From Aquificota bacterium (GTDB lineage: Bacteria > Aquificota > Aquificia > Aquificales > QOAS01): DNA of 38,249 bases. The translations under genes and the position numbers were made by a program. The number at the start of each line of letters is the position of its first letter. The stretch's first letter is position 1. The DNA lies in contig JAADES010000025.1 of assembly GCA_013153315.1 (NCBI GenBank), positions 1 to 38,249 on the forward strand, given 5' to 3'. Shown here one piece after another: positions 1-19,300 of the stretch. Below the pieces are notes generated by a model. That model was not told the origin of the DNA and did no database searches. It saw only the letters and a list, made by a program, of their open reading frames with translations.

Positions 1-705
1 ATGGGCTGTATCTTTCCCTGTATATCCATCACAATCCCAATAAGCTGCTAAAAATTTACTTATTAAGCTTGGTTTTAAGTCAAATACAAACTCAGGAATA
101 AATTTTTCGGCACTTTTTCTATGGCGTAATCCTAACTCTTCCAACCAATTTAATAAGGGATTAGATTTATATCTAGTCCTAACATTACTAACAACAAAAA
201 TATTTGTGACATCTCTGGTCCTTACGTATTCTAAAAATTTTACATTGGTAAAACCTTTTAGAGTGTTAGATTTAAAGGAGTTTAAAAGTATAGGGTCTTT
301 ATTTACAAAGGCTACCCCACTTTTACCAGAAATATACCCATCAGCTAAAAGGTATGCCAAAACAAGTAGTTTATGTATATTGAACTGTTTTCCAGCCGTA
401 GGAATTTTTTTTGGAACGGCCAATAAATCTTCCTTGGGTTTTAAATCTTTTAATTCTTTCCAACCGTCGGGTGTTAAAAATTTATGGTCGGAGGTAGCCT
501 TTATGCGTAAGCCGTTAGTTAAAACTATCTCGTAAACCTCTTTCATACCGTTATCGAATACTCTTGTTACTTTAGATGGCTTAAGCTTATAAGTTTCCTC
601 GTCTAGGGATAGAACTTCTAACCCAACGAGGTTATTTTTCACAATTTCTTCCAAAGTTAGAGTTCTACCGTCAGCTAATGTGATTTCAGTATCACCGGTA
701 AGACA
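1..705 (-). mobile_element. DnaE intein 2 (incomplete, N-terminal 235 residues)
   Basis: The polymerase sequence is broken after ETYGL by a classic intein block A, CLTGDTEITLADG. A block-B-like segment follows (TSDHKFLTPDGW, with the T-x-x-H-like pattern SDH), then two LAGLIDADG-type motifs: VLAYLLADGYISG and FLAAYWDCDGYTG. Both keep their acidic residue, so the homing endonuclease could be active. The C-terminal splicing blocks F and G and the downstream extein lie outside the window. The host residue after the intein should be Cys, Ser or Thr; in uninterrupted DnaE proteins the local context is TYG-x-x-x-YQEQ. Confidence 0.9.
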
Positions 706-3700
706 AAGTCCATAAGTTTCCTTCAATATAGGTTCCAACTCAGGGAAATCGTAAGTAATAGGTTCTTTACCGTGCTTTCTACGAACAAAACTTTCGACCA
801 ACCCCGATTTCAAGGGGCCGGGGCGGTATAGGGCCAAAACCGCTATAATGTCGTCAAAGCGGTCGGGTTTTAGTTTTTTTAGAAGATTTTGCATTCCGCG
901 GCTTTCTAACTGAAACACTCCCGTGGTTCTTCCGCTTTTTAAAAGCTCGTAAACTTTGGGGTCTTCGTAATCCAATTTCGCAAAGTCTATATCTTTACCG
1001 TATAGCTGTTTTACCATTTTTTTCATTCGGTCTAACTCTGTTAGGGTTTTTAATCCGAGAAAGTCCATTTTGAGGAGCCCGATTTCTTCCAGAACCCCCA
1101 TGTCGTATTGGGTTGCTACAATGAATTTCTCCTTTTTGGTTTCCTTATCTTTTTCCTTTCTCGCATATAGGGGAACCAAATCCTTTAAGGGTTGGGGTGC
1201 TATAACTACCCCCGCGGCGTGGAATCCTGTATGTCGGGTTAACCCGTCAAGTTTTTTACCTATTTCTACAACCTCTTGGAGGGTGGGGTCTTCATTAATC
1301 ATTTTTCGGAACTTTAAAACGGCATCTTCTATATCGGGTCTTTCTCCATATTTGGCTTTTAACTCTTGGAGTGTCCAATCGGTCATCTCTTCCAAAGAGA
1401 GTTGACTACCTTGGGTATCCCCCTGGGGGATAAGTTTGGCCAGTTTGTCGGCTTTATCCAAAGGAACACCCAACGCACGGCATACGTCCCTTATTACCGA
1501 TTTGGATTTCAAAACGTTGTAGGTAATTATTTGGGAAACGTTATCGCGTCCATATTTTTGTCGAACGTATTCTATAACTTCCTCCCTTCGGTCTTTACTG
1601 AAGTCCACATCTATATCGGGCATGGATACACGGTCGGGGTTTAGGAATCGCTCGAAAAGCAAATCGTGCTTTATCGGGTCTATGTCGGTAATTCCCAAAG
1701 CGTAAGCTACCAACGAACCGCCGGCCGAGTTGTGAATGGCCACCGCCGAAGTTGTATAGGAATGGTCTATGGGAACGGTTATGTCGTAAACTTTTCCCTT
1801 ATACGGAACTTTTTCAACTTTCCTAACCTTTACATAGATAAATTTGTCATCCACAAAGAAGGAATCGTTTCTAAAAAACCTTTGTTGGGGGATTTTTATA
1901 GGAAATCCTTCAAAGGTTTCGTTCCATTTTAACAGTTGTGCCCCCGAAAGCTTAACCGAATATTCGGGATTCCAATTTTTGTTTTTTCTTTTTCTAACTG
2001 TTATAGAAGCCCAAAAGCCGAAGCGGGCCAACAACAAGCGTAATTGATAGGCTAAAGTTTTGGAAACTGTAGAGTATTTTATTGAAAGGGTTTTGAAGCC
2101 TTTTCCATCGTAGCCATCCCCTCTAAAGAGGTAAGCAATTAAGGTTTTTACATATTCATCTTTTCCCTTTAAGACAATTTGAATCGGTATTTTTTTGTTT
2201 TCCGCTTTACTACCGCACAGCTTTCTTAAGAATTGGGCCACTATTTTGGTTTTAAATTCAACAGTTAAAGCTTTACGGTTTTTGGCCTTGTAAATTTTCC
2301 CTTTTACCTTAAAAACTTCTTCAAATAAGCTTAGGATTTCTTGGGCATACTCTTCTTCCTCAATATGGAAACCAAATCCTACAACTCCACCGTCGGCGTT
2401 GACTTTAGTATAACCCTCGGAAATGAAATAACCGAGGATTTTAGCCAGTTTGTGGTCAAATTTTATAAATCTGGGAACTTTTGTAGTTTGGAGTTTATTT
2501 GTTCCTCTTTCGTAGTAAATAAATTTTTCATTCCACCTTAGGGCGGGGCTTTTTTCAACAAACTCCAATAGGTCAAAAACAATTTCTTTATTCGCCGAGG
2601 GTTGTCTTGGAAAAACTAAAAAGTCTCCTTTTTTAAGTTTATCGGCGGGCAACCAGGTAAGTTTATACTCCTTATAAGGTTTTTCTTTGCAATACCTTCC
2701 ACAGGTGGGTTTGCAAACTGTATCTTTTACAGATTTAACCTTACATTTTTCCGTTTTTAGGGCTAAAACTTTATGGTCGTGGGTTAGGGTTAATTCTTCG
2801 TTGCCCGCCTCAATTTTTACGAGGTTTTCATCAACATCGTAAACAAACTTATTTAATACTGGCAAAACCGCCCCGCGGTGGGTAAGCACAAAGTCGCCAA
2901 CTTCTACTTTTTCTATAGGTTTTAGCTCTCCGCTTCCGAGCATTACATTGGTATCGGGCAAAACGCACCCCCTACCCGGGCCCACGGGGATACCTTGGCT
3001 TTTAGCCCAGTTTATGAAATCCTGAACTATAAGGAAGTAGCCGGGAAAACCCATTTTTGAGATTACATCCATTTCGTATTCCAGTCTTTCCCAATAAACC
3101 TTTTCGTCCTTTGCAACCCCTCTTTCCTTTATCCTTTTTTTGAGGCCTTCTATTGCCAACTTGCGGAAATAGGTTTCCAGGGTTTCTCCTTCGGGAACTT
3201 CGTATACGGGCATTTTGTATTCTTTGTTTTCGAAATACTCCAGTTTGTCCGCTACCTTTTCGGCCACCTCCAAGGTGTTTAAGAGAGCTTCTTCCCAGCC
3301 TTCGAATTTGTTTTCAAAGCGTCGCCACATCTCTTCGGGCGAGGCGAAATGAAGCTCCATAGAGCGGAGTTTTTGACCTATAGGCGACTGGAGTAGTTCC
3401 TGATAGGTTTTCTTCATTTGGAGGGCCGTCAGTATCATGTGGGCAGTTTTGTCTTCGGGCCTTAAATAGTGCACGTCGGCGGTCGCCACCAGTTTTAAAC
3501 CGTGTTTTCGAGCCAGTTTTATAAGAATCCTATTTGCGGTATCTTGTTCCTCTAAATGCCAATGGTGTTGAATTTCTACATAAAGGTCTTCCTTTCCGAA
3601 TATATCCAATAGTTTCAAAAGCCAACGCTCGGCCTCCTGCTCTTGCCCGCGGGCGGCGTAATAGGTAGGTAGACCTTTCAAACAGGCGGTTAAACAAATT

Positions 3701-4119
3701 AAACCTTCCCTATGTTGGTTTAAAACTTCCAAATCTATCCTAGGTTTGTAATGGAAACCTTCCAAAAACCCTATGGAGGATAATTTCATTAAGTTTTTTA
3801 AACCGACGTCGTTTTTGGCTATTAAAACTATATGGTGGTTTTGGTTGTCGGTGTAATTATCTTCGGAGCCCTTTCCTATTTTTGTCTTTAAGGAGCCTTT
3901 GGTTATGTAGGCCTCCATACCTATAATGGGTTTCAACCCCGCTCCCTTTAGGGTTGTATAGAACTTATATGACCCAAAAAGGTTTCCGTGGTCGGTTATA
4001 GCAACGGCTTGGTAGCCTAGCTGTTGTGCGTATTCGGGTAGCTCTTTTATTTTTATTGCCCCGTCAAGTAAAGAAAACTGTGTATGCAAATGGAGGTGGA
4101 CAAATTCTTTAGAGGCCAT
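1..4119 (-). CDS. dnaE: DNA polymerase III alpha subunit, with two inteins (3' end outside window)
   Basis: This is the catalytic subunit of the replicative polymerase, which extends both strands at the fork. The reading frame is open from ATG 4119 to the window edge (1373 codons visible). The N-terminal PHP domain starts with HLHTQFSLLDGA and has AITDHGNLFG. The palm has VGPGRG and the catalytic aspartates in PDIDVDFS, and the later TGVFQLES and YRPGPL motifs follow. Two inteins interrupt the frame: intein 1 after residue 384, between GPGRG and SAGGS, and intein 2 after residue 1138, at ETYGL. About 725 extein residues are seen; the fingers end, OB fold and C-terminus lie beyond base 1. The start is the first ATG that gives the family N-terminus. 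There is no Shine-Dalgarno sequence, and a promoter lies so close that the leader would be only about 6 nt. The gene is divergent from rsmI. Confidence 0.97.
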   Translation of the reverse strand, partial: MASKEFVHLHLHTQFSLLDGAIKIKELPEYAQQLGYQAVAITDHGNLFGSYKFYTTLKGAGLKPIIGMEAYITKGSLKTKIGKGSEDNYTDNQNHHIVLIAKNDVGLKNLMKLSSIGFLEGFHYKPRIDLEVLNQHREGLICLTACLKGLPTYYAARGQEQEAERWLLKLLDIFGKEDLYVEIQHHWHLEEQDTANRILIKLARKHGLKLVATADVHYLRPEDKTAHMILTALQMKKTYQELLQSPIGQKLRSMELHFASPEEMWRRFENKFEGWEEALLNTLEVAEKVADKLEYFENKEYKMPVYEVPEGETLETYFRKLAIEGLKKRIKERGVAKDEKVYWERLEYEMDVISKMGFPGYFLIVQDFINWAKSQGIPVGPGRGCVLPDTNVMLGSGELKPIEKVEVGDFVLTHRGAVLPVLNKFVYDVDENLVKIEAGNEELTLTHDHKVLALKTEKCKVKSVKDTVCKPTCGRYCKEKPYKEYKLTWLPADKLKKGDFLVFPRQPSANKEIVFDLLEFVEKSPALRWNEKFIYYERGTNKLQTTKVPRFIKFDHKLAKILGYFISEGYTKVNADGGVVGFGFHIEEEEYAQEILSLFEEVFKVKGKIYKAKNRKALTVEFKTKIVAQFLRKLCGSKAENKKIPIQIVLKGKDEYVKTLIAYLFRGDGYDGKGFKTLSIKYSTVSKTLAYQLRLLLARFGFWASITVRKRKNKNWNPEYSVKLSGAQLLKWNETFEGFPIKIPQQRFFRNDSFFVDDKFIYVKVRKVEKVPYKGKVYDITVPIDHSYTTSAVAIHNSAGGSLVAYALGITDIDPIKHDLLFERFLNPDRVSMPDIDVDFSKDRREEVIEYVRQKYGRDNVSQIITYNVLKSKSVIRDVCRALGVPLDKADKLAKLIPQGDTQGSQLSLEEMTDWTLQELKAKYGERPDIEDAVLKFRKMINEDPTLQEVVEIGKKLDGLTRHTGFHAAGVVIAPQPLKDLVPLYARKEKDKETKKEKFIVATQYDMGVLEEIGLLKMDFLGLKTLTELDRMKKMVKQLYGKDIDFAKLDYEDPKVYELLKSGRTTGVFQLESRGMQNLLKKLKPDRFDDIIAVLALYRPGPLKSGLVESFVRRKHGKEPITYDFPELEPILKETYGLCLTGDTEITLADGRTLTLEEIVKNNLVGLEVLSLDEETYKLKPSKVTRVFDNGMKEVYEIVLTNGLRIKATSDHKFLTPDGWKELKDLKPKEDLLAVPKKIPTAGKQFNIHKLLVLAYLLADGYISGKSGVAFVNKDPILLNSFKSNTLKGFTNVKFLEYVRTRDVTNIFVVSNVRTRYKSNPLLNWLEELGLRHRKSAEKFIPEFVFDLKPSLISKFLAAYWDCDGYTGKDTAH
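1729..2967 (-). mobile_element. DnaE intein 1 (complete, 413 aa, LAGLIDADG)
   Basis: The intein runs from Cys1 (codon 2967-2965) to a terminal His-Asn (Asn codon 1731-1729) and is followed by extein Ser, as class 1 splicing requires. Block A is CVLPDTNVM and block B is LTLTHDHKVLA. The two LAGLIDADG motifs are KILGYFISEGY and LIAYLFRGDGYDG, both with an acidic catalytic residue. Block F is KVYDITVPIDHSY and block G is SAVAIHN. Excision restores GPGRG-SAGGSLVAYALG, a conserved pol III alpha motif close to the active site. An unusual Cys4 segment lies between block B and the endonuclease at intein residues 75-93. Boundaries were placed from extein continuity and the codon frame. Confidence 0.95.
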
Positions 4120-16382: not shown

Positions 16383-19300
16383 ATGTCGGAAGAAATAATA
16401 AAGGTTCCAATAGAAGAAGAAGCAAAACAATCCTATTTGGACTATGCAATGTCCGTTATTATAGGGCGGGCAATTCCCGACGCGAGGGACGGGTTGAAGC
16501 CCGTTCAGCGTCGGATTTTATACGGTATGTATGAAATAGGGCTATTGCCCAATAAACCTTATAAAAAAAGCGCCAGGGTTGTGGGTCATATCCTCTCCTT
16601 CTACCACCCCCACGGCGACCAAGCGGTTTACGACACCTTGGTTAGGATGGCCCAACCCTTTACTATGCGTTATCCCTTAATAGACGGCCAAGGAAACTTC
16701 GGGTCAATAGACGGCGACCCGGCGGCCGCTATGCGTTACTGCGTTGTAGGGGATACTTTGGTTTTAACCGATAAAGGATTAATCCCTATAAAGGAGATAG
16801 TTCCCGAAGCGAAACCCAACAGCGATAACGATATAGACCTCAAAGTGGTTTCCATAGACAGGAAAATCCACAAGGCGGATAAGTTTTTCCATTCAGGCAC
16901 CCACCCTGTTTTGAAAGTAACAACCGACCTCGGTTTGGAAATAGAGGGAACTTTTAACCACCCCGTGCTCGTTTGGAAAAGAAACTCCGAAGGAAAACCT
17001 CAATTTGAGTGGAAACTTCTCGAGCAGGTTGAAGAGGGAGATTATTTGGTAGGAATATCCAACAGCCGTTATTTCCCTACCGAGGAAAATATTTCTGAAG
17101 AAGAAATTCCGTATTTAGTTGAAGAAGTTTTGTCGCCTTCTGAAGATACAGATTACTATTCCCCTACCTTAGTGGCATCTAAAACACTTCTCCTTAACAA
17201 GGTTTTCAGTTCTTCAGAGAAACTCCAATTAAAGTTTTTAAAAGCATTACTCGCTAAGGTAGGAAAAGAATTTAAAGAAAAACTCCTATTGGAATTTTCC
17301 GATGAGGAAACGGCCCGTTTTGTTCAGATTGCGTTAATAAACCACGGGGTTGTTCTAAAAAGAGATAAAAACCTTCTATGGGTAGAGAATAGAAAGAAAA
17401 ACCCAATTTTGGAAGAGTTGGAAAATAATAGGAACCAAAAGTGGAAATATCTACTAACTAAAGTAGTCCGAAAAGAGTTCACAGGATTAAAACCCGTTTA
17501 CTCAGTGAGGGTTCAAAGCAAATGTCATTCCTTTGTGGCAAACGGAATAATAAACCACAACACGGAAGCAAGACTAACCCCCCTTGCGGTGGAAATGTTG
17601 GAAGACATAGATAAGGATACCGTAGACTGGCAACCGAACTTTGACGGCTCCGTAAATGAACCTAAAGTATTGCCATCAAAATTTCCTAACCTGATTTGCA
17701 ACGGTTCCACGGGAATAGCGGTAGGTTTGGCCACCTCTATACCGCCCCACAACCTTAAAGAGGTGGCAAAGGCCCTTATAGCCGTGGCCGAAAACCCCCA
17801 AATAACCACAGAGGAAATAGTGGAAAAATATATAAAAGCTCCCGATTTCCCCACCGGGGCAATTATTGAAAATACAAAAGAAGATTTAATAAAAATTTAC
17901 AAAAAAGGTAAGGGCTCTATACATCTGAAAGCAAAAATCCACGTGGAAAAACAAAAAGGTGGAAAAGAACTAATAGTTATTACCGAGCTTCCCTACCAAG
18001 TAAACAAAGCTGACCTAATAAAACGAATTGCCCAGTTGGCGAGGGACAAAAAAATTAAAAACATCACCGACCTAAGGGATGAAAGCGACAAAGAAGGTAT
18101 TAGGATTGTCATAGAAGTTTCCCGTTATGGGGAACCGGAAAAAATTATCCAACAGTTGTTGAAACATACCCAGTTGAAGAAAAACTTCCCCGTCAACATG
18201 GTGGTTCTTATTGATGGTGAACCTAAACAGGTAGGATTAAAAGAGCTCCTATGGCAGTTTGTTAAACACCGTCTGGAGGTAATAACCCGAAGAACAAAAT
18301 ACTTCCTTAGGAAGGCTGAAAAAAGACTCCATATAGTGGAAGGACTATTAAAAGCCGTTTCCGACATAGACAGGGTAATAGAAATAGTCCGCAACAGCCA
18401 AACTGCGGATGAAGCAAAAACCCGCCTTGTGGAGGAATTTAATTTAACCCCCACCCAAGCCCAGGCGGTTTTAGATTTGAAACTACAAAGGTTGACTTCC
18501 TTGGAAACCAAAGCCCTCCAAGAGGAAGCTGAAAAACTTAAAAACCAAATAGAGGATTACAAAAATATTCTCCTTAAACAGGCAAGAAAAATAGACATAT
18601 TCAAACAAGAACTACAAGAGCTGGTTAAAAAATACGGCGACGACCGTAGGAGTTTCGTCGAATATATCCAAGGAGAGTTCTCTAAAGGTTTAATCCCCGT
18701 AGTAGTTTACAAAGATGGAACAGTCCAACCCCTCGAAGATGAAGAACAAAGAGATTTCGATAAACCTGTTGTGGGACTTTTAAAAGTTTCCGCCAAAGAA
18801 GGCTTATATATAGCCACCAACTTGGGAAGAACCTATTGGGTTACAGGGGACAAACTCTTTAAAACCACAAAGGTAAAACTAAAAGAGGGAGAAAAAATAA
18901 TAGGGGTATTCCGCAAAGAGTTCGGAAGATTGTTAATAGCCACCAAAAAGGGGTATGTAAAAAAACTTTCCTTGGAAGACTTTAAATATACCCGTGCGGG
19001 TTCTCCAATAATAAAACTGACCGAAGGGGACGAAGTCGTAGGAATATGGGAAGCCCAAGATTGGGGCGACATTTTAATCTATACCGAAAAAGGAAAAATC
19101 CTAAGATTTCCCACCAACAAGGTAACAACCACAGGCCCCTCTTCCAAAGGCTCGGTTGGTATAAAACTAGACAAAGGGGATAGCGTTAGCGGTATAGCGG
19201 CCCTAAACGAGGAACCCTATGTAATTTTTATCACCCGCACGGGGAAAGTTAAAAAAGTTAGAAGCGACCAAATAAAGGTAAAAAACAAAGGAACAAAAGG

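Follow-up and report, generated by a model that had tools for sequence, protein, structure and literature searches.

The dnaE gene of a heat-loving Aquificales-type bacterium almost certainly hosts a selfish, full-length class-1 intein equipped with a homing endonuclease (HEN) of the LAGLIDADG type, and the splicing domain of this intein contains a four-cysteine (Cys4) module with, in our estimate, about an even chance of serving the HEN as a metal-stabilised accessory for DNA recognition. The element belongs to a known type, in which possibly only the Cys4 module is new. Because its boundaries are well defined, and because empty, intact and decaying alleles occur within one genus, the homing cycle becomes testable there; the candidate module, in turn, is relevant to the question, described as elusive (PMC8966425), of why accessory domains are required by some HEN inteins. 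The window, meaning the whole stretch of DNA analysed (38,249 nucleotides), places the intein (site 1) and its host gene as follows.

2968..4119, minus strand: DnaE N-extein, ending GPGRG, with its likely start, picked by similarity to relatives, at the ATG at 4117-4119 (MASKEFVHLHLH) (reading frame, Pfam)
1729..2967, minus strand: DnaE site-1 intein, 413 residues, Cys1 to Asn413 (translation, Pfam, alignment, empty allele in genome G006)
706..1728, minus strand: DnaE C-extein lying between two inteins, with Ser+1 at 1726-1728, ending ETYGL (reading frame, Pfam)

Translation of the minus strand yields 413 stop-free residues from Cys1 (codon 2965-2967) to a terminal His412-Asn413, joined to the DnaE frame as VGPGRG|C...HN|SAGGSLVAY and flanked by the PHP, DNA_pol3_alpha and finger domains (Pfam). 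In G006, a member of the same genus, the corresponding locus (L041) reads GPGRGSAGGS without interruption, which confirms the intein boundaries; the first-pass annotation, which had set a 413-residue intein between GRG and SAGGS of DnaE, thus proves exact to the base. Its description of the insertion as lying next to the catalytic palm holds in the primary sequence only, where the MPDIDVDF motif follows 35 residues after SAGGS. Homologous DnaE proteins do not carry the segment as native sequence. Among 136 genomes of the phylum, the site is uninterrupted in 81 with a TCN serine codon and in 21 with an AGY serine codon, whereas 12 show the exact intein-extein junction; a thirteenth allele, in G091, is fragmented and contains a run of unread residues. 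Recurrence of the junction in these genomes indicates that the intein is not a chance feature. The probability that the segment is instead native to DnaE or arose as an artefact of assembly is vanishingly small: its in-frame position is all that speaks for either. Both were rejected, since the segment is missing at this site from the majority of the phylum's DnaE genes, that of same-genus G006 among them, and since independent assemblies of two families contain the intein.

Within the intein, the following elements were recognised.

2929..2967, minus strand: splicing block A (N1) with Cys1 (sequence; C1 invariant in the alignment)
2758..2793, minus strand: splicing block B, T62-x-x-H65 (T62 and H65 invariant)
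2689..2745, minus strand: Cys4 module, C75-X9-C85-X3-C89-X3-C93, inside the splicing domain (conserved in site-1 alleles)
1888..2487, minus strand: LAGLIDADG homing endonuclease domain, residues 161-360, limits approximate (Pfam, sequence relatives, AF2, Foldseek)
2413..2436, minus strand: LAGLIDADG motif 1, LGYFISEG, with acidic E184 (alignment)
2113..2142, minus strand: LAGLIDADG motif 2, LIAYLFRGDG, with acidic D284 (alignment)
1729..1791, minus strand: splicing blocks F and G, VYDITVPIDHSYTTSAVAIHN (NCBIfam TIGR01443 above cut-off; alignment)

The class-1 residue set (C1, T62/H65, H412-N413 and Ser+1) is complete in the window allele, and C1, T62-x-x-H65, D395 and H412-N413 are invariant across eight aligned DnaE alleles. 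Profile searches agree: Intein_splicing (PF14890) matches the segment at 1.6e-10, above its curated cut-off, as does the NCBIfam C-terminal intein model TIGR01443, while the N-terminal model TIGR01445 scores below its own. The earlier reading that all splicing blocks and both acidic LAGLIDADG motifs are present is borne out by the alignment, including E184 and D284. The precursor DnaE would therefore be expected to self-splice with Cys1 and Ser+1 as nucleophiles and with cyclisation of Asn413, restoring GPGRGSAGGS in an essential polymerase.

LAGLIDADG_3 (PF14528) matches the endonuclease region in two stretches (2.7e-16). By sequence, the closest solved structures are PI-PkoII and the TliVMA/PhoVMA inteins, with matches covering mainly the HEN. 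An AF2 model, built from a two-sequence alignment, is good across the greater part of the HEN and poor elsewhere, including the Cys module; its Foldseek matches comprise 7qss, 7qsu, 7qst, 2cw7, PI-SceI and I-DmoI, so that the predicted HEN fold matches those of intein endonucleases and of I-DmoI. The nearest known systems in both sequence and fold are thus the class-1 inteins of thermophiles, TliVMA, PhoVMA (7qss/7qst) and PI-PkoII (2cw7), which also nest a LAGLIDADG HEN within a HINT domain but reside in other host genes and carry their accessory domains elsewhere (PMC8966425). At the same GRG|S position, the Pol III alpha of Lactococcus phage 949 (ADM73674.1, L089) holds an intein 24% identical over its full length, which is a distant relative, has a phage host and lacks the Cys4 module. 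Cyanobacterial DnaE inteins, by contrast, are split, lack a HEN and occupy another site.

Conservation and distribution suggest that the HEN would cut intein-free dnaE at GPGRG|SAGGS, and that repair of the cut gene would copy the intein in. Occupied alleles are found in family f1, to which the window belongs, and in f3, taken as Hydrogenothermaceae; none was found in f2 within the 136-genome set. Between f1 and f3, inteins are 46-56% and exteins 56-60% identical, which implies an element either old in the order or exchanged long ago. Identities are discordant within f3: the G097-G094 pair shares 88% of intein and 81% of extein positions, and the G016-G040 pair 69% and 92%. Intein and extein trees agree with this discordance, several of their branches being weak, and homing from one lineage to another would be expected to produce such a pattern. 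Patchy occupancy, together with the disagreement between intein and host among some Hydrogenothermaceae, indicates that the element has moved. No recent phage or plasmid donor was found, the best phage and plasmid relatives being 22-28% identical. Distant full-length relatives of the intein include one in a gene of Eggerthella phage LE2-3 annotated as portal protein (L091) and one in a hypothetical protein of Annamia dubia plasmid pANN4383.03 (L090), where a DPPYYG methylase-like motif precedes the insert. As a separate observation on f3, the Ser+1 codon is TCN in all occupied site-1 alleles but AGY in 12 of the 26 empty ones (Fisher p about 0.03, with relatedness ignored); the AGY-serine empty alleles are possible resistant alleles, or the contrast may reflect co-conversion of donor flanks.

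Within the genus of the window, empty G006 nests among occupied members in the extein tree with moderate support (89/87), a placement implying that its site was either vacated or never filled. The HEN is conserved among the intact same-genus alleles, as judged from dN/dS of about 0.09-0.11 (G002-G000, G002-G003 and G000-G003), values that are rough because dS, at about 1.8-1.9, is near saturation. Between G001 and G002 the ratio is 0.35. G001 reads LGCFISEK and LIACIFRK---GG at the two LAGLIDADG motifs, the second acidic residue being gone, and among sites that the remaining alleles share without variation it is changed at 12 of 70 in the HEN versus 1 of 44 in the splicing part (Fisher p = 0.015); G002 or G000, in comparison, is changed at 1 of 71 HEN sites (p = 0.001 against G001), both tests using window, lineage and region limits of our choosing and sites that are not independent. 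The extein of G001 is also fast-evolving. On these substitutions, G001 is an allele with a decayed HEN and an intact splicing part, and the one genus holds empty, HEN-intact and HEN-decayed alleles, corresponding to the empty, full and decaying stages described for the homing cycle (PMC1654191). It is distinctly unlikely that the HEN of the window allele is itself already inactive and that the allele persists by splicing alone. Coexistence of empty sites within the genus would fit such a state, yet both acidic residues are intact, HEN sites are conserved and dN/dS is low, unlike in G001. The earlier prediction that splicing and homing both look competent accordingly gains backing, at the level of sequence, from the conservation of the motifs, the low dN/dS and the patchiness of the distribution.

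The Cys4 module, which the first-pass annotation leaves unmentioned, is an insertion after block B, and such a module is unusual as an intein feature. Its stretch, KCKVKSVKDTVCKPTCGRYCKEKPY, lies after block B and ahead of the conserved strand that comes next, and holds four of the intein's six cysteines within 19 residues (permutation p = 0.004). Among the site-1 alleles read, G001 alone fails to keep all four, and most f3 alleles have the spacing CX11CX3CX3C. G001, the allele with the decayed HEN, shows an in-frame absence of 26 residues spanning the module, with block B and the following strand kept. This joint loss of module and HEN amounts to one event; among the inteins of ribonucleotide reductase (RNR), a search for another independent case turned up none. 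Those RNR inteins, present in six f3 genomes (NQYSS|C...HN|CYVN), share the architecture of the DnaE element and carry a cysteine cluster at the same place, but they differ in host gene and site, form a separate clade in the tree and space their cysteines as CX7CX8CX10C (minus one Cys in G107). HEN-bearing inteins without the module include those of phage 949 and of UgdH in the window's own genome. In the literature searched, nothing relevant was found on a zinc module in inteins or on inteins in Aquificales, and such a Cys module is undescribed in the open-access papers covered, most subscription literature having been out of reach.

A parallel is offered by PI-SceI, the yeast VMA intein, a HEN intein whose HINT domain has an additional insertion, the DNA recognition region (DRR; PMC8966425). 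PI-SceI differs in host and site; the likeness lies in the insertion into the HINT domain, and the metal role is one that we infer for the present module. Conservation, clustering, co-loss in G001, the RNR clusters and the DRR parallel together argue for the accessory reading, under which the Cys4 module would bind metal and help the HEN hold its DNA target, as the DRR does for PI-SceI. The broader proposal, that Aquificales-type DnaE and RNR inteins share a metal-binding Cys4 DNA-recognition module, a metal-dependent counterpart of the DRR that is discarded with the HEN as homing decays, is tentative, and we place it a little short of even.

Two other functions for the module were weighed against the same observations. 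In a real intein, the cysteines could form a zinc- or redox-responsive splicing switch controlling how the replicative polymerase matures, as their place within the splicing domain, directly after block B, might suggest; zinc also inhibits splicing in the DnaB inteins of mycobacteria, albeit through a catalytic Cys that it binds (PMC7360933). We regard a switch as unlikely, since one useful to the host would be expected to stay after loss of the HEN, and G001, with splicing intact and HEN decayed, is without the module. A purely structural cluster, whether an Fe-S site, disulfides or a metal knuckle that steadies a loop in the heat, without a part in DNA recognition or regulation, is doubtful: the genome encodes a reverse gyrase, a sign of a hot habitat, but two families conserve the cluster, the RNR inteins keep one with other spacing, and the cluster is absent where the HEN has decayed. 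The DNA-recognition accessory thus remains our preferred reading of the module.

Finally, the window holds two further inteins, one of them in the same DnaE and not mentioned in the first-pass annotation of site 1.

1..705, minus strand: second DnaE intein, N-terminal part, following ETYGL and cut by the contig end (reading frame, Pfam, NCBIfam)
16758-17561, plus strand: third window intein, about 268 residues, in GyrA at RY|TEARL, seemingly lacking an endonuclease

The C-terminal part of the second DnaE intein and the rest of DnaE lie on another contig of the same genome (L046 1-330, G000:C3). A naturally split dnaE gene, which the ending at the contig edge might have suggested, is less likely, as the intein continues on that contig and the genes of relatives are uninterrupted. 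At this second site, all occupied alleles read have Cys at +1 and empty ones have Ile, Val or Trp, so the nucleophile seems to arrive with the intein. The DnaE of G003 (L037) accommodates three inteins in a single frame of 2213 residues, and a TAA reported for G003 falls outside this frame. The second G003 intein is a mini-intein of 139 residues, and the third shows, ahead of block B, a CX2C...CX2C stretch resembling a zinc ribbon; G003 also has a longer intein at the same place in GyrA. The 1.35-Mb genome of the window (G000) is itself intein-rich, with about seven counting the two in DnaE and that in GyrA; its further intein genes encode UgdH (L002), reverse gyrase (L117), a topoisomerase-like protein (L118) and RtcB (L119). 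The reverse gyrase intein appears to start with Ser, and the topoisomerase-like frame ends early.
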